DNA from: Pelagimonas phthalicica
Lineage (GTDB): Bacteria > Pseudomonadota > Alphaproteobacteria > Rhodobacterales > Rhodobacteraceae
Direction: 5' to 3'
DNA length: 64,000 nt
Assembly: GCF_004364805.1 (NCBI RefSeq)
Contig: NZ_SOAP01000001.1
Coordinates: forward strand, 1,302,001-1,366,000
In this document: positions 26,137 through 33,613 of the stretch, piece after piece
How positions within the stretch are numbered: the first letter of the stretch is position 1
How the letters are laid out: the number at the start of each line of letters is the position of its first letter
Made by a program: the position numbers and the translations under genes
Notes under the pieces: model-generated
The model's database searches: none
The model's input: only the letters and a program-made list of their open reading frames with translations
Told to the model about the DNA's origin: nothing

Positions 26137-28308
26137 TTAAAGCTTGCCAATCGACCAGAAGAAGGTCTCGCCCGAGCTGTCATCGACACCATCATTGTCG
26201 GTGCTGACAAAAGCCGAGCCGTCCGGCAGGATCGCCAGGCCTTCGATCTTGTCGGTGACGTAACCGCCAAAGGACTGCAGATCTGGGATCAGGTCGCGCA
26301 CTTCTTCTTTGGACACGACGGGCAGAACCTCACCCAGTTTCGCAGGCACCATTTCGGCAGCCGGGATGCGGTAGATTTTCTTGGTCACAACGTCCGACCC
26401 GATCTGATTGTCGCGCTCGATGACATAGACGTAATCGCCATGTGCCACGATCTCGGACAGACCAACCCAGCCCTTTTTCGGCTCGGCTTTGGGATAGTGA
26501 ACCGCGCCCCATTCCTTGGTTTCAAGGTTATAAGCCACCAGTTTCACGTGGTTCTTGGGGTCGTCTTTCCATTCGCGCTGAACGGCCATCCACAGAGTAT
26601 CGCCAATCATGGTGATGCCCTCAAAGCCAAAGCGTTTCTCAACCGCCATCAGCTCAGCTGGCAGGCCAATTTCCTGCTTATGGCTTTTGATCAGACCATC
26701 GCCGTCGACGTGGTAAACCGCGTGCGGGATCGCGCGGTCGGTGCGCCCCTCAGAGGCAAGATAGAAACCACCCTTGCCGTCCAGAGTGATGCCTTCGAGG
26801 TCCAGTTTCTGGGCAGCGGCACCATCGGCGCGGTGAACGCGGATCACGTCAACGATCTTGGCCGGTGTCTGGCTGGCATCGATCTTGAAGATCGACGGCT
26901 GGAAGCCAAAGAAGCTGTCATTGACCGCATAGATCATGCCGTCTTTGTCAGCCACCATGCCCGAAATCGCGCCCCAGCCGATCAGCTCTTTGGCACCTTC
27001 GGAGGTCAGGGTCGGATACTGAGGGGCCGCATCCTGCAGCTCATACATCATGACATGGGCACGCGGGCCCTTGTCTTCGATCAGATCTTTTTCATTGGCG
27101 GATACCAGCAGGTTGCGCGCGGGCAGGGCAACGTACCCCTCTGGGCCAACACCCGATGGCAGGATCTGTTTCAGAACCGGCGCGCTGAGATCGGTGACGT
27201 CATAGACACCCACAGCGGACCCACGCTCGGACCCGACAAAAACGTAAGGCGTGTCGCCGAATTTGGCGAATTCGATGCTTTCCGGCTCAACGCCTTTGCT
27301 GTCGGAACGCTTATCCGGGTAGTGGCCGATCTGAACCAGCGCGTGCTCAAAGCTCGCCCCACTTTCATAGACAACCGAACCATCCTTGTTGAAGATGGTC
27401 CAGCCGCGCGAGCCACCATCCATGTCGCCCTCATTGGCGGTGGCAAAATGGTCGGCATCGATCCACTTGACCGCATCAGGTTCACGGACACGGCCCATTT
27501 GGCTTTCGGTGAAGAGCAGCGCGCCGCGCTCATCCGTGGCGTCGATGCCCTCGAGGTCAACGGCACCGGCTGAGAAGTGGTTCAGGATCTCGCCATCCTT
27601 GGACACAACAACCATGTGGTTGTTCTCCTGCATGGTGACGACGATCTCACCATTGTCGTTGATGTCGACAAATTCGGGCTCTGGATCTTCGGGGGAAACC
27701 TCGGCCAGGCCAGTCAGCTCGATCATTTTCAGCGTGTCACAGGCAGGCACATCACCGTTCAGAGCAACGGTGACCAGAAAGCCAGCGGGCAACTGACCGG
27801 TACGGCCATCGCCCAGATCCTCGTCACGCTCGTTTTCGATGGCGACGGCCACAAAAGACCCATCCTTGGCCACCGCGATGCTGTCGGGCTGACCGCCCAG
27901 ATCACAACGCGCAGCTTCGGACCCGTCAGCAATGTTGATCGCGGCCAGGAAGCCCGATGGATCGGTGTAAGACTCGGACGTGTTCACGCCAACAATGGCA
28001 TTGACACCGGCAACACCAACCGAAGTCGGCTCACCCTCCAGGGCGATATTGCCCAGCGGCTTGGGGTTGGCAGCATCGGTGATGTCGATACGCCCCAGCA
28101 CGCCCAGCGGACTGTCCGTATAGACCAGCGTGTTACCGTCGGCGGTTGCGGCAATGATTTCGGCCGAAGTTTCGGCCTTTTTGTCTTCGCCATCTGCCAT
28201 GTTCATTGGCGTGGCAAAGCTGGAAATGCGGTTGAAATTCATTTCTGCAAAAGCGGTTCCAGCGCTAAGCGCCAATACCGAAGTCAAGCAAAACGTCTTA
28301 AAGCCCAC
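26137..28308 (-). CDS. Secreted esterase-like/phytase-like beta-propeller protein
   Basis: 723 aa with a Sec signal (residues 1-21, AGTAFA before EMN). The N-terminal half has repeated beta-propeller blades (for example IIAATADGNTLVYTDSPLGVLGRIDI and GQPDSIAVAKDGSFVAVAIENE). The C-terminal half (about 440-720) resembles the esterase-like activity of phytase domain, with LDLEGITLDGKGGFYLASEG and KIEGLAILPDGSAFVSTDN. It is probably a periplasmic or extracellular phosphoesterase, but activity is inferred only. It is acidic, as expected for a marine exported protein. A promoter embedded in a long inverted repeat lies upstream. Confidence 0.85.
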   Translation of the reverse strand: MGFKTFCLTSVLALSAGTAFAEMNFNRISSFATPMNMADGEDKKAETSAEIIAATADGNTLVYTDSPLGVLGRIDITDAANPKPLGNIALEGEPTSVGVAGVNAIVGVNTSESYTDPSGFLAAINIADGSEAARCDLGGQPDSIAVAKDGSFVAVAIENERDEDLGDGRTGQLPAGFLVTVALNGDVPACDTLKMIELTGLAEVSPEDPEPEFVDINDNGEIVVTMQENNHMVVVSKDGEILNHFSAGAVDLEGIDATDERGALLFTESQMGRVREPDAVKWIDADHFATANEGDMDGGSRGWTIFNKDGSVVYESGASFEHALVQIGHYPDKRSDSKGVEPESIEFAKFGDTPYVFVGSERGSAVGVYDVTDLSAPVLKQILPSGVGPEGYVALPARNLLVSANEKDLIEDKGPRAHVMMYELQDAAPQYPTLTSEGAKELIGWGAISGMVADKDGMIYAVNDSFFGFQPSIFKIDASQTPAKIVDVIRVHRADGAAAQKLDLEGITLDGKGGFYLASEGRTDRAIPHAVYHVDGDGLIKSHKQEIGLPAELMAVEKRFGFEGITMIGDTLWMAVQREWKDDPKNHVKLVAYNLETKEWGAVHYPKAEPKKGWVGLSEIVAHGDYVYVIERDNQIGSDVVTKKIYRIPAAEMVPAKLGEVLPVVSKEEVRDLIPDLQSFGGYVTDKIEGLAILPDGSAFVSTDNDGVDDSSGETFFWSIGKL

Positions 28309-30161: not shown

Positions 30162-32234
30162 TTACTGTGACATGCTTTCGGCCAGGCGCATTAGGGTGAT
30201 GGCCTCTTGGCGGTAGCCATAAGGGTCAGCGCCCTTGGCCCCCTGCGCCAGCTTGATCGCATCGCCAAAGGACCAATCACCAATCAGGTCTGAGCCGCGC
30301 AGGATTTGGCCAAAACCGGCGATGGCCAGGGCGAAATCCGCATCTGCAAGCGCATCGGTGTTTTCGACAATCGAGGCCTCGATCAACTGGCTTTCATCTG
30401 CTCCGGGGGCTTTGTAACGCAGGCGCAAAAAGCCCAGCTCATCACTGTCCACCGCCTCTGGCGCAGCGCCATAGCGCAGCGGATCTGTCAGGCGCGCCTC
30501 TGATCCGACAGGGGTGATCTCATAAAGCGCGGTGACCTGATGGCCTGCGCCAATTTCTCCGGCATCGACCTTGTCATTGTTGAAATCCTCGCGTTTCAGG
30601 GCGCGGGTTTCATAGCCGATCAACCGGTATTCAGCGACCTTGGCCGGGTTGAATTCGACCTGAATTTTTACATCATCTGCGATGGGCACCAAGGCACCGG
30701 TCAGTTGATCCACCAGCACTTTGCGCGCCTCGCTCAGCGTGTCGATATAGGCGGCCATGCCGTTGCCGGTCTGTGCCAAGGCCTGCATCGTCGCATCATC
30801 CAGATTGCCGCGACCAAAGCCCAGGACAGACAGATAAGTGCCGCTGTCGCGTTCCTTGGCGATATAATCCTTGAGCTCATCTGGATCATGAATGCCGATG
30901 TTGAAATCGCCATCCGTGGCCAGGATCACGCGCGAGGTCTTGCCCTCTTCTGCCATTTCCTTGGCGGTGGCATAGGCCTGTTGCAGCCCCTCTTGCCCGG
31001 CAGTGCCGCCACCCGCTTGCAGGTTTTCCAGGGCTTGCAGGATCTTGTCGCGCTGATCCGCCGGGGTCGGGTCAAGCACACGGCCCGCGCTGCCAGCATA
31101 GGTCACGATGGAAACGCTGTCATTCTCGGTCAACTGGCCCAGCATCAAACGAAAGCTTTGCTTGAGCAAGGGCAGTTTGGTGGGCTGGTTCATGCTGCCC
31201 GATGTGTCGATCAGAAAGACAAGGTTCATCGGCGGGCGTTCATCCGGCATCATGCCTTGAAGGCCGATATGCACGATCTGTGTGCCATCATTCCAAGGCG
31301 TATCGGTCACGCCAATGCTGGGCTGAAATGGCTGATCGCCGGTTGGGGCCGGGTAGTCGTAAGAGAAGTAATTGACCATCTCTTCGATCCGCACCGCGCC
31401 GTCGGGGGGCAGAGTGCCATAGGTCAGCGAGTTGCGCAGGATCGACCAACTGGCCGTGTCCACATCGATGGAAAAGGTCGAAACCGGGTCTTCGGCGGTG
31501 ACTTTCAGCGGGTTGGCCTCGGCCTCGGGGAAGGCTTCGGTGTTTTCCTCTACGACAATCACAGGCTCCATGGGCGGCATGGAAAGCTGCGCACCGCCAC
31601 CGGAATACATCTGGGTCAAACCGCCATTGGCGGCCCCAACGCGCGGGCTGGCTTTGGCTGTTGGCATCGGTGTTGGTGCTGGCCTTGAAACAGGCGCACC
31701 GAAGGCCTGGCCATTATCTGTTTCTCCTGAGAGGGAAAAGGTGACATCCATATCCGTGTGAAACAATGTTGTTTCACCGCCTTCTGGAACGGTGCCTATG
31801 TCTGCACTTCCCGATAGCGCAATGCCCCCTTGCTGCGGTGCCTCGGCCTCTTCAACGACAGGCTCTTGCGCAGGGTCCAAGGACAGCAGTTCGCCCCCCG
31901 GTGCATTTTGCTCGGTCACAATGGCACCGGGCATGCCGGGTATTTGATCCCTTACAACCGGTACAATCATCACCAGCCCCAAAGCGGCCAGCGCGGTGGT
32001 TGCGGTCAAAACTCCGCGGGTCGAGAAATTGGCAATCATTTTTCTTACTCCTCTGATCAGCCCGTTTTCCGGGCGTTCAGAGGTCAGACGCGTGTCATCC
32101 GCATTTCCTTGGGAAGAAAATTGCAAATCGTCAAAATTTTCCATCGCGCGGGCAAGGTTTTCCGCCTTGCGCGTATCGTCAGCCTTTGGTGTGGCCGCAT
32201 CCAATGCGCGTTTGAGATCATCAAAATCGCTCAT
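30162..32234 (-). CDS. Membrane-anchored von Willebrand A protein (YfbK-like), sigma-factor partner
   Basis: 690 aa. Residues 1-72 are a charged cytoplasmic segment and about 74-95 a single transmembrane helix (VLTATTALAALGLVMIVPVV). A Pro/Glu-rich periplasmic region follows, with YfbK-type sequence (FSIDVDTASWSILRNSL). The VWA domain (about 330-510) has an intact MIDAS: DTSGS, the later Thr in GGGTAG and Asp in ILATDGDFNIG. A C-terminal YfbK domain completes it. The ATG at 32234 overlaps the ECF sigma stop codon and has GGAGG upstream. The N-terminal part occupies the place of an anti-sigma factor in such operons, so it may hold the sigma factor; that is inference. Confidence 0.9.
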   Translation of the reverse strand: MSDFDDLKRALDAATPKADDTRKAENLARAMENFDDLQFSSQGNADDTRLTSERPENGLIRGVRKMIANFSTRGVLTATTALAALGLVMIVPVVRDQIPGMPGAIVTEQNAPGGELLSLDPAQEPVVEEAEAPQQGGIALSGSADIGTVPEGGETTLFHTDMDVTFSLSGETDNGQAFGAPVSRPAPTPMPTAKASPRVGAANGGLTQMYSGGGAQLSMPPMEPVIVVEENTEAFPEAEANPLKVTAEDPVSTFSIDVDTASWSILRNSLTYGTLPPDGAVRIEEMVNYFSYDYPAPTGDQPFQPSIGVTDTPWNDGTQIVHIGLQGMMPDERPPMNLVFLIDTSGSMNQPTKLPLLKQSFRLMLGQLTENDSVSIVTYAGSAGRVLDPTPADQRDKILQALENLQAGGGTAGQEGLQQAYATAKEMAEEGKTSRVILATDGDFNIGIHDPDELKDYIAKERDSGTYLSVLGFGRGNLDDATMQALAQTGNGMAAYIDTLSEARKVLVDQLTGALVPIADDVKIQVEFNPAKVAEYRLIGYETRALKREDFNNDKVDAGEIGAGHQVTALYEITPVGSEARLTDPLRYGAAPEAVDSDELGFLRLRYKAPGADESQLIEASIVENTDALADADFALAIAGFGQILRGSDLIGDWSFGDAIKLAQGAKGADPYGYRQEAITLMRLAESMSQ

Positions 32235-32770
32235 GCTTCGGCCTCCTTCATCGCTTTGAGTTTCTTTTTCGCCTCCGAGATGCGCCAGCTGATCGTACCT
32301 TCGGAGACACCGAGTATCTTGGCAACCTCCGCATGGCTCAGCCCGTCCAGGATCAACACCAGCGTTTCCCGCAACTCGGGCGGTGTCAGTGCATTCATGG
32401 CAAGGCGCAACCAATCCGCCCGTTCCGCCTGTTCCTCTTCGACGGCGCGGCGCGCGATTTCCCAATCACCCCAGCCCTCAGCCGCCTTGGCATGGCTGGC
32501 ACGGCGGCGAAACCGATCCCGCGCCGCGTTCATCACAATCCGATAGAGCCAGGTCATCACCTTGGCCTCGCCCCGAAAGCGGCAGAGCTTGGCCGGCAGA
32601 GCGGCACAGATATCCTGCACCAGATCCTCAGCCTCGGCCTTGCTTCCGGTCAGGCGAAAGGCCAGCCGGAACATCGGGTCATAGATCCGATCCAGCAAAG
32701 CCGCAAAGGCTTGCCGATCTCCATTCGCTGCGGCCAGGGCCAGGTCTTTGTCACTCACAGTCATACGCAT
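32231..32770 (-). CDS. ECF-type RNA polymerase sigma factor
   Basis: About 179 aa, two-domain sigma-70 of the extracytoplasmic-function class. Region 2 includes LAFRLTGSKAEAEDLVQDICAAL and VMTWLYRIVMNAARDRFRRR. Region 4 includes LTPPELRETLVLILDGLSHAEVAKILGVSEGTISWRISEAKKKL. The start is uncertain between ATGs at 32770 and 32764. Its stop overlaps the start of the VWA gene (ATGA), and no classical ChrR- or zinc-type anti-sigma gene is nearby. The promoter it recognises cannot be read from one locus. Confidence 0.92.
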   Translation of the reverse strand: MRMTVSDKDLALAAANGDRQAFAALLDRIYDPMFRLAFRLTGSKAEAEDLVQDICAALPAKLCRFRGEAKVMTWLYRIVMNAARDRFRRRASHAKAAEGWGDWEIARRAVEEEQAERADWLRLAMNALTPPELRETLVLILDGLSHAEVAKILGVSEGTISWRISEAKKKLKAMKEAEA

Positions 32771-32824
32771 CTCATGACTTGGACGCAGCCCAAAGCGCAA
32801 TCCTTGGATACCTTACCCGATTTT

Positions 32825-33613
32825 TTAATTCAGCAGGTCGCGCACCATATCGCTGGACGGGTTGGCCAAGGCGTCGATCACGTCGAAATGGTGTTTTCCA
32901 GGCACGACCTCGTGACCACAGGCCCAGGCTTCGGCCAGCCAACGGGCTTGATCCAGAAAGACCGGGCGTTCCTCTGCGCCGACCCAGACGGTGACCGCAA
33001 CATCCGGTTTGGGCTGGAAAATCGGGCTTTCGGCCTGCGCCTCGGCCTCGTCCACTTTCAGCTCAGCATTCATCGTCAACTGCATCAACGGACGTAGATC
33101 CGAGACCGGAGAGATCGGCTGCACCTTGGCCAAACGCGCCAGAATGTCGTCGGGCAGAACACCGGGCGCGCACATGCGCGACACAAGATGCCCGCCAGCC
33201 GAATGCCCGGACAAGCGCACAGGCCCCTCGATTTCGCGCGCCGCGACGGTGATCGCATTGGCAATCTGACGGGTGATGTCGGCAATCCGCACACGCGGAC
33301 AGAGATCATAAGACGGAACCGCCACGGCCCAACCTTCGGCCTGCGCTCCAGCCGCCAGATGCGACCAATAAGATCGATCAAATTTCAGCCAATAGCCCCC
33401 ATGAACAAACACAACCAAACCCTTTGGTGTGCCTTCGGGCATGAACAGATCGAGCACCTCGCGCGTGCCATGGCCATACATCAGACCCAGCCGCGCCCGC
33501 CCTGTCAGCGCCTGGGATTTGCGAAACTTATCGGCATCCACCGCCCAACGATCCGGGTAGCTTTCCCCGTCCGGGATATAGGCGGCATTGGCATAGGCGT
33601 CATCTAGGTCCAT
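32825..33613 (-). CDS. Alpha/beta hydrolase, kynurenine formamidase-like
   Basis: 262 aa. The oxyanion-hole motif HGGYW (about 90-94), the nucleophile elbow GHSAGGH and a late His in GKHHFDVID give a complete serine hydrolase triad pattern with Asp candidates. HGGYW with GxSAG is typical of arylformamidase-type carboxylesterases, so N-formylkynurenine is one possible substrate. No other kynurenine genes are in the window. It stands alone on the minus strand, divergent from gabD, 55 bp from the sigma factor gene. Confidence 0.85.
   Translation of the reverse strand: MDLDDAYANAAYIPDGESYPDRWAVDADKFRKSQALTGRARLGLMYGHGTREVLDLFMPEGTPKGLVVFVHGGYWLKFDRSYWSHLAAGAQAEGWAVAVPSYDLCPRVRIADITRQIANAITVAAREIEGPVRLSGHSAGGHLVSRMCAPGVLPDDILARLAKVQPISPVSDLRPLMQLTMNAELKVDEAEAQAESPIFQPKPDVAVTVWVGAEERPVFLDQARWLAEAWACGHEVVPGKHHFDVIDALANPSSDMVRDLLN

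Follow-up and report, generated by a model that had tools for sequence, protein, structure and literature searches.

Evidence for an ECF sigma factor module in Pelagimonas phthalicica with a probable VWA anti-sigma factor and a predicted second sigma-type promoter inside its gene

CnrY, the partner of the extracytoplasmic function (ECF) sigma factor CnrH (PDB 4cxf), is a membrane-anchored anti-sigma factor with a cytoplasmic domain of two helices. In class II, to which CnrY belongs, the two helices bind sigma4 and sigma2, while the class I domain (ASDI) is formed by four helices in about 100 residues, often with an HxxxCxxC motif, and many class I proteins cross the membrane with one helix and have a sensor part at the C-terminus (relevant passages of PMC7406223). 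Class I anti-sigma factors, such as RseA, RsiW, RskA, and ChrR, are encoded by genes adjoining the sigma gene. A different group of proteins, the YfbK family (PF12450 plus PF12034), includes E. coli YfbK, for whose predicted structure an ArnB-like architecture has been noted (PMC12852372, in the part dealing with it). In S. meliloti, an RpoE6-dependent promoter has been suggested inside the rpoE6 gene (PMC6180224, in the corresponding section). The present work deals with a two-gene locus of Pelagimonas phthalicica that has traits in common with these systems. It lies in a stretch of 64,000 nucleotides (assembly GCF_004364805.1, contig NZ_SOAP01000001.1, positions 1,302,001 to 1,366,000 of the forward strand), called here the window, and comprises an ECF sigma factor gene (32231-32770, minus strand) and the gene of a VWA protein of the YfbK family (30162-32234, minus strand). 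We consider it probable that both genes form an autoregulated module of an ECF sigma factor and a transmembrane anti-sigma factor with a built-in isoform switch.

The locus shares the adjoining genes with class I, a two-helix cytoplasmic domain with CnrY, and the VWA and YfbK_C module with E. coli YfbK and its relatives. It differs from CnrY-CnrH in that the putative sensor, the VWA/YfbK module, is on the same chain and in that a predicted promoter lies within the gene. The nearest precedent for an internal promoter is RpoE6-EcfR6, in which, as far as the section cited goes, the promoter is inside the sigma gene and the anti-sigma gene stays whole; here, the promoter would be inside the anti-sigma gene and its transcripts would lose the anti-sigma domain. 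Among the matches listed for the open-licence literature, no description of an ECF sigma factor with a YfbK or VWA anti-sigma factor was found, and a word search for 'von Willebrand' and 'VWA' returned nothing in PMC8999054, PMC8103513, PMC7406223, and PMC6180224.

The sigma gene likely starts at the ATG at 32770, which gives a product beginning with MRMTVSDKD. In the 178 residues scanned, Pfam recognizes Sigma70_r2 at residues 26-90 (1.6e-14) and Sigma70_r4_2 at residues 119-170 (1.4e-10), and TIGR02937 scores 92.7 bits against a cut-off of 42.9. The Pfam and NCBIfam scans of the 178 residues gave no sigma3 match, and the protein, with sigma2 and sigma4 and without sigma3, is an ECF sigma factor; its closest solved relative is CnrH (4cxf, E 8.6e-15). 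The sigma reading frame ends at 32231 and, as originally reported, its stop codon is overlapped by the VWA gene; the overlap is four nucleotides long (ATGA).

The VWA protein is a bitopic protein of 690 residues which contains PF12450 (vWF_A) at residues 230-322 (31269-31547; 7e-34, 116.1 bits), a VWA domain at residues 337-500 (30735-31226; 2e-18, 67.4 bits), and PF12034 (YfbK_C) at residues 514-687 (30174-30695; 9e-67, 225.3 bits), all encoded on the minus strand; these three domains make it a member of the YfbK family. Residues D343, S345, S347, T411, and D441, which we take to be those of the metal ion-dependent adhesion site (MIDAS; DxSxS, T, D), are invariant in 63 aligned rows, and the protein is in this respect a VWA protein with putative metal binding. 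No Pfam family covers residues 1-229 in the scan of the whole protein, and residues 1-112 scanned alone gave a single sub-threshold match, to DUF4192 (E 0.025). An AlphaFold2 (AF2) model from 63 rows (pLDDT 80, pTM 0.70) has a confident fold over residues ~240-690 and helices at 4-14, 20-40, 58-68 (short, pLDDT about 70), and 72-97, the last being the membrane helix (31944-32021, minus strand). The confidence is low at residues 42-55 (below 50) and 101-216. Foldseek ranks ArnA/ArnB, a Catenulispora VWA protein, and inter-alpha-inhibitor heavy chain 1 highest against the whole model and places Sec23/24 lower in its list. The architecture that the original prediction had read from the letters is borne out by Pfam, AF2, and the alignment: the N-terminus is short and cytoplasmic, a single membrane helix follows, and the VWA domain with its intact MIDAS is accompanied by a YfbK domain.

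The first 40 residues (32115-32234, minus strand) constitute, on the evidence of a sequence profile, residue coupling and AF2, a putative anti-sigma domain of two helices. In the model, the protein has the anatomy of class II, that is, two helices in a short, membrane-anchored N-terminus, while no relation of this domain to the CnrY sequence was detected by its profile (alignment A5) up to E 10. It does not resemble the class I domain, since A5 and AF2 indicate two helices in about 40 residues and alignment A5 lacks the HxxxCxxC motif.

To place the pair in its family, 384 loci were gathered by searches of the own genome, relatives, the class, the phylum, and two families. They hold 390 VWA open reading frames (ORFs) of at least 250 bits, of which 369 are unique, the window included; the comparison of these proteins disregarded 21 duplicates, 9 edge-cut ORFs, and any VWA ORF scoring less than 250 bits. 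Excluded from the locus set were the matches G862, G884, G886, G894, G897, G904, G907, and G930, and the weak partial matches G133, G266, G286, G364, and G444. The group labels used below follow the retrieval route of the loci, and the second family is taken to be Rhizobiaceae on the basis of annotated Rhizobium plasmids. Among the 369 unique proteins, 284 are encoded directly behind an ECF sigma ORF, 76 are unlinked, and 9 are edge-cut. The arrangement is thus not a matter of chance, and the overlap is of exactly 4 nt in 204 of the 284 linked loci. A profile built on residues 1-60 matches all 284 sigma-linked proteins and none of the 76 unlinked ones; as the profile was trained on linked proteins, the second figure is the informative one, for 75 proteins, given that L284 is an N-broken fragment without its N-terminus. 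The 76 unlinked proteins have neither a sigma neighbor nor the anti-sigma domain, and 55 of them carry a lipobox after a hydrophobic stretch, versus none of the 284 linked proteins.

The original prediction would have been refuted by frequent separation of the two genes in related genomes, and within the family this was not seen. Orthologous sigma factors were counted in 36 of 121 genomes; their E values reach at most 1.2e-34, far from the 1.4e-21 of the next ECF sigma factor. Among the 73 family genomes present in both surveys, the 35 with the VWA gene all have the orthologous sigma factor; in the 36th sigma genome (G030), a contig edge cuts the sigma gene short. In the same set, five genomes from outside the family (G120, G122, G155, G157, and G160) contain solely the sigma-free YfbK type. 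In 115 genomes of the class, the N-terminal profile gave four matches, three of them to the VWA protein and one weak (E 0.006), and hence no convincing case of the domain on another protein.

Two side observations concern these proteins. A VVTGSR-like stretch, which resembles the plug start of TonB-dependent receptors, is found in the N-terminal linker of 9 of the 76 sigma-free YfbK-like proteins (L007, L116, L128, L133, L135, L159, L196, L248, and L253) and in none of the 284 sigma-linked ones. Moreover, records titled Enemella evansiae (L032), Exiguobacterium profundum (L094), and Vicinamibacteraceae (L104) encode proteins closely related to that of Rhodobacteraceae type, the best segment being 64-66% identical, and these assemblies are possibly mislabelled or mixed.

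The sigma gene is preceded by a predicted autoregulatory ECF-type promoter, CCAAGGATTGCGCTTTGGGCTGCGTCCAA (32779-32807, minus strand), with a CCAAG/CGTC site conserved across loci. At ECF spacing, this site is found upstream in 172 of 176 regions of the Rhodobacteraceae group and in 58 of 63 of the Rhizobiaceae group, compared with 0.4 and 0.6 in shuffled sequences; a third group of 39 upstream regions stood outside this enrichment comparison and is included in the following count. Within one mismatch, the site is present in 270 of 279 regions, 269 of them with N16 after CCAAGG. The predicted promoter has, then, the -35 and -10 elements, the fixed spacing, and the position upstream of the sigma operon that characterize ECF-type promoters. 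From the end of the -10 element to the Met aligned to MTVSDKD, the distance is 16-24.6 nt (5th-95th percentile), so short that the sigma transcript probably has almost no leader, both in the window (32770-32807) and in most relatives.

A second copy of this element appears to lie inside the VWA gene, CCAAGGAAATGCGGATGACACGCGTCTGA, at codons 41-51 (32084-32112, core element 32087-32112, minus strand), just behind the two-helix domain. The pattern CCAAGG-N16-CGTC with the extension CGTCNNA has exactly two matches in the 64 kb of the window, one upstream of the sigma gene and one intragenic, versus a mean of 0.02 in shuffles. A further match without the extension, at 27844-27869 inside a 723-codon ORF (26137-28308), is probably due to chance. 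Across 280 of the 284 linked loci (four pairs were left out of the codon and the coupling analyses), the exact element occurs in 197, always in one frame and within the first 140 codons, and the rest of these genes, 451,554 nt in all, holds no exact match. Within one mismatch, the element is found in 274 of the 280 loci, in comparison with 10 of 280 for a control region, and a promoter-like site is found in only 1 of the 76 unlinked VWA genes. Both sites are present on p42c of R. etli CFN 42, at RHE_RS23540-RHE_RS23545, and in Ruegeria sp. B32.

At the protein level, the element is read as the near-invariant QG-x5-R, and this could have been taken for a motif of the anti-sigma domain, with an incidental codon bias and the full-length protein as the only product. 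Such an explanation, to which the invariance of R49 and the presence of Q42 in more than 90% of the sequences lend some weight, is highly improbable in view of the codons. Where the residue is present, Q42 is encoded by CAA in 271 of 272 cases, G43 by GGA in 221 of 225, and R49 by CGT in 277 of 279, against a background of 26%, 8%, and 11% for these codons in the same genes. The R49 codon is followed by C in 258 of 279 loci, and the resulting CGTCNNA extension is common to both promoters, with A at 96% (268 loci). In addition, the AF2 confidence is below 50 in this segment. When codon conservation was scored as codon identity among sequences sharing the residue, Q42, R49, and G43, the codons of the -35 and -10 elements, were the three most conserved positions in the 177 Rhodobacteraceae-type loci, in the other 103, and in all 280. 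QG-x5-R was rejected as a protein motif on the basis of these near-exclusive codons, and it is, judging from the codon counts, a DNA element that repeats the promoter of the sigma operon. The covariation between the two promoters of a locus is weak, a point against the preferred reading, and the shuffles ignore phylogeny.

Downstream of this element, the gene contains a predicted ribosome-binding site with a start codon, AGAGGAGTAAGAAAA-ATG (32037-32054, minus strand), at Met66. An in-frame ATG between the -10 element and the start of the membrane helix is present in 276 of 280 loci, and 270 of these ATG codons are preceded by a Shine-Dalgarno run of at least 4, compared with 11.5% of 2938 control ATG codons. 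The column of Met66 is Met in 216 of 280 loci, and the ATG is at another position elsewhere. The G62 codon, which contributes GGA to the ribosome site AGAGGAG that precedes Met66, ranks 4th in codon conservation in the 177 Rhodobacteraceae-type loci and 7th among the 637 positions scored in all 280; it falls outside the top eight in the other 103 loci, which counts against the preferred reading. Because transcripts from the intragenic promoter cannot encode residues 1-48, their product would lack the anti-sigma domain; the predicted short product, residues 66-690 (30162-32039, minus strand), would keep the membrane anchor and the periplasmic domains. The intragenic site might instead be a true sigma promoter that merely raises the amount of VWA mRNA, the ATG at Met66 being a by-product or the short form unstable. 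The evidence for the promoter is indeed stronger than that for accumulation of a short protein, and the internal start is not fixed at one column. Nonetheless, this explanation is unlikely: the ATG is in frame almost without exception and is nearly always provided with a ribosome site, one codon of that site is highly conserved in the Rhodobacteraceae-type loci, and the transcripts could not in any case yield the N-terminal residues. The VWA gene thus very probably encodes two products, a full-length sensor and anti-sigma factor and a short form induced by the sigma factor.

Regarding the binding of the sigma factor, mean-field direct coupling was computed for the 280 sigma/VWA pairs. The strongest pair between the proteins joins R17 of the sigma factor and D35 of the VWA protein (score 4.09), and only one pair, internal to the sigma factor, is higher in the joint run. 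R17-D35 ranks first among 15,372 pairs in five analyses, three with different parameter settings and two with the 177 Rhodobacteraceae-type and the 103 remaining pairs taken separately. The top observed scores of 4.35 for R17-D35 and then 2.12 and 1.96 compare with best scores of 1.08-1.96 in 24 re-pairings, drawn among near neighbors, wider neighbors, or at random. Since the pairs that follow are only weakly coupled, it is R17-D35 that carries the case, and A54-R29 lends lesser support. Both R17 and A54 of the sigma factor are in or adjoining sigma2 (Pfam match 26-90; structure alignments), which the last helix of other anti-sigma factors is described as contacting (PMC7406223, same passages). 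We infer from the coupling that the N-terminus binds the sigma factor and constitutes, very probably, a new two-helix anti-sigma domain. The pair E155-G43 was withdrawn as a protein contact, given that the G43 codon belongs to the -35 element.

Several results weigh against the proposed module. The third score (1.96) only equals that of the best re-pairing, periplasmic pairs appear at ranks 4 and 5 of the joint run, and the top 20 pairs fall 7 in the N-terminal, 4 in the membrane, and 9 in the periplasmic part, where 4.8, 2.3, and 12.9 are expected. Some high pairs link sigma4 to the membrane helix, which is impossible as a contact, and the 103 pairs that are not of Rhodobacteraceae type keep just R17-D35 and A11-A14 among their top eight. 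The E155-G43 coupling may reflect contact of the sigma factor with DNA, not with protein. A sigma-VWA fusion was modeled as the single chain obtained by read-through of the natural stop between in-frame neighbors (L093, alignment A3); AF2 returned a pTM of 0.55 that leaves the interface undecided, and in Foldseek the sigma part of the fusion has a lower rmsd to RNA-polymerase-bound sigma factors than to compact anti-sigma complexes. Two other alignments for this model, A1 (checked) and A2 (judged from identities), were dropped, their rows being apparently misplaced. Finally, the A5 profile of the N-terminal domain finds no solved anti-sigma chain up to E 10.

These points bear on the view that the VWA protein does no more than act as a co-transcribed effector of the sigma factor, its residues 1-65 carrying a promoter and linking translation without binding the sigma factor. 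It would agree with the undecided interface and the weak couplings, with the lack of a recognized anti-sigma domain in the N-terminus, and with a conserved QG-x5-R that is accounted for by DNA. We regard it as quite unlikely, since conservation of residues 1-40 is at the protein level, with codons that vary more (four for A30, two for F34), the top coupling R17-D35 falls outside the promoter, and the domain is in none of the sigma-free VWA proteins. Sequestration of the sigma factor by the N-terminus, as proposed in the original prediction, finds strong support in silico in the co-occurrence and in R17-D35; the same proposal missed that residues 42-50 correspond to a promoter. As far as the sequence tells, the earlier interpretation was right in its core and incomplete, in that it lacked the second switch that is very probably embedded in the codons.

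The preferred reading, an autoregulated module with an isoform switch, is drawn from the pairing of the genes, the co-occurrence of the domain, the coupling, and the two promoter-like elements, the inner one with its ribosome site and codon-level selection; we infer from them sigma binding, promoter activity, the short protein, a release step, and the sign of the feedback. In this model, the full-length VWA protein would be translated from the ATGA overlap and would hold the sigma factor with the two helices of its first ~40 residues, while the ArnB/Sec23-like VWA module would sit outside the membrane. A sensor role of the VWA protein is plausible, and an event in the periplasm would free the sigma factor, for instance proteolysis, or a ligand (a protein or a metal-dependent one) that binds to the VWA module or leaves it. 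The freed sigma factor would then transcribe from the two CCAAGG-N16-CGTC promoters: the one upstream of its gene would provide more sigma factor and full-length VWA protein, and the one inside the VWA gene would provide the short form, which begins at Met66 and shares the anchor and the periplasmic domains of the long form but not its anti-sigma domain. The short form would most likely act as an effector that removes or occupies the ligand sensed by the long form, or as a subunit that mixes with it, and either role would set the gain of the loop. Such mixing is plausible in view of the fold likeness to the partner-binding ArnA/ArnB and Sec23/24.

As to the release step alone, regulated intramembrane proteolysis has precedents in RseA, RsiW, and RskA. 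A sequence of site-1 and site-2 cleavage blocked by the VWA module, similar to that of RseA, is a possible alternative to a conformational or subunit-exchange signal, one that we consider rather doubtful. The single-pass topology and the 116-residue, low-confidence and probably disordered periplasmic linker would suit a protease target, while the large, folded, and possibly oligomeric ArnB/Sec23-like module favors a signal by binding or assembly. Beyond the module itself, we put forward tentatively, with slightly less confidence than doubt, that sensor and effector are one protein, distinguished by a promoter concealed within the coding sequence of the anti-sigma factor. The short VWA protein would join or compete with the sensing form at the membrane until the periplasmic ligand is titrated, resulting in a self-scaling homeostatic loop in one reading frame, conserved in two families of alphaproteobacteria and, here and there, in other lineages.

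If this is true, a VWA-bearing family with a minimal two-helix domain would be added to the anti-sigma factors, and a functional handle would be gained on the YfbK family, uncharacterised according to Pfam. It would also mean that a sigma-type promoter can reside in near-invariant codons of the gene of its own inhibitor, so that activation yields an inhibitor-free isoform, an arrangement invisible to annotation. A more general caution is that what looks like a near-invariant motif of a protein may be a DNA element.

Whether the sigma factor has other targets was approached with the pattern CCAAGGA-N15-CGTC-NNA, which gave 64 sites in 20 sigma-positive genomes and 21 in 20 sigma-negative ones. 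The module's own two sites account for 32 of the 64, and the 32 extra sites represent a modest excess over 21. Fourteen of these extra sites were inspected by eye: five directly precede DUF4139/DUF4140 genes, three SIMPL genes, one the gene of a trypsin-like protease, and one a 138-residue ORF in the window's own genome, and four are apparently due to chance. In a follow-up, DUF4139 was over the cut-off in 8 of 30 genomes, and a site with one mismatch was found at the start of the DUF4139 gene in one of three sigma-positive genomes (G034, not G065 or G084; only G034 and G065 were new relative to the 20 plus 20 genomes) and in none of five sigma-negative ones. Given the modest excess and this weak follow-up, the wider regulon, whose patchiness is a further point against the model, is only a lead, and the secreted DUF4139, SIMPL, and trypsin-like proteins are candidate targets. 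Sigma-promoter-like sites directly before genes of these three kinds were noticed in the sigma-carrying relatives L479-L487 and L489.

With respect to the surroundings of the module, a conservation analysis of flanking genes was discarded because antisense frames dominated it, and the neighbor genes were inspected in 12 loci. On its own strand, the sigma gene of the window is preceded by the gene of an alpha/beta hydrolase (32825-33613; NCBIfam NF058665, 408 bits), and at locus L036 the sigma gene likewise follows a gene whose product has a similar start.

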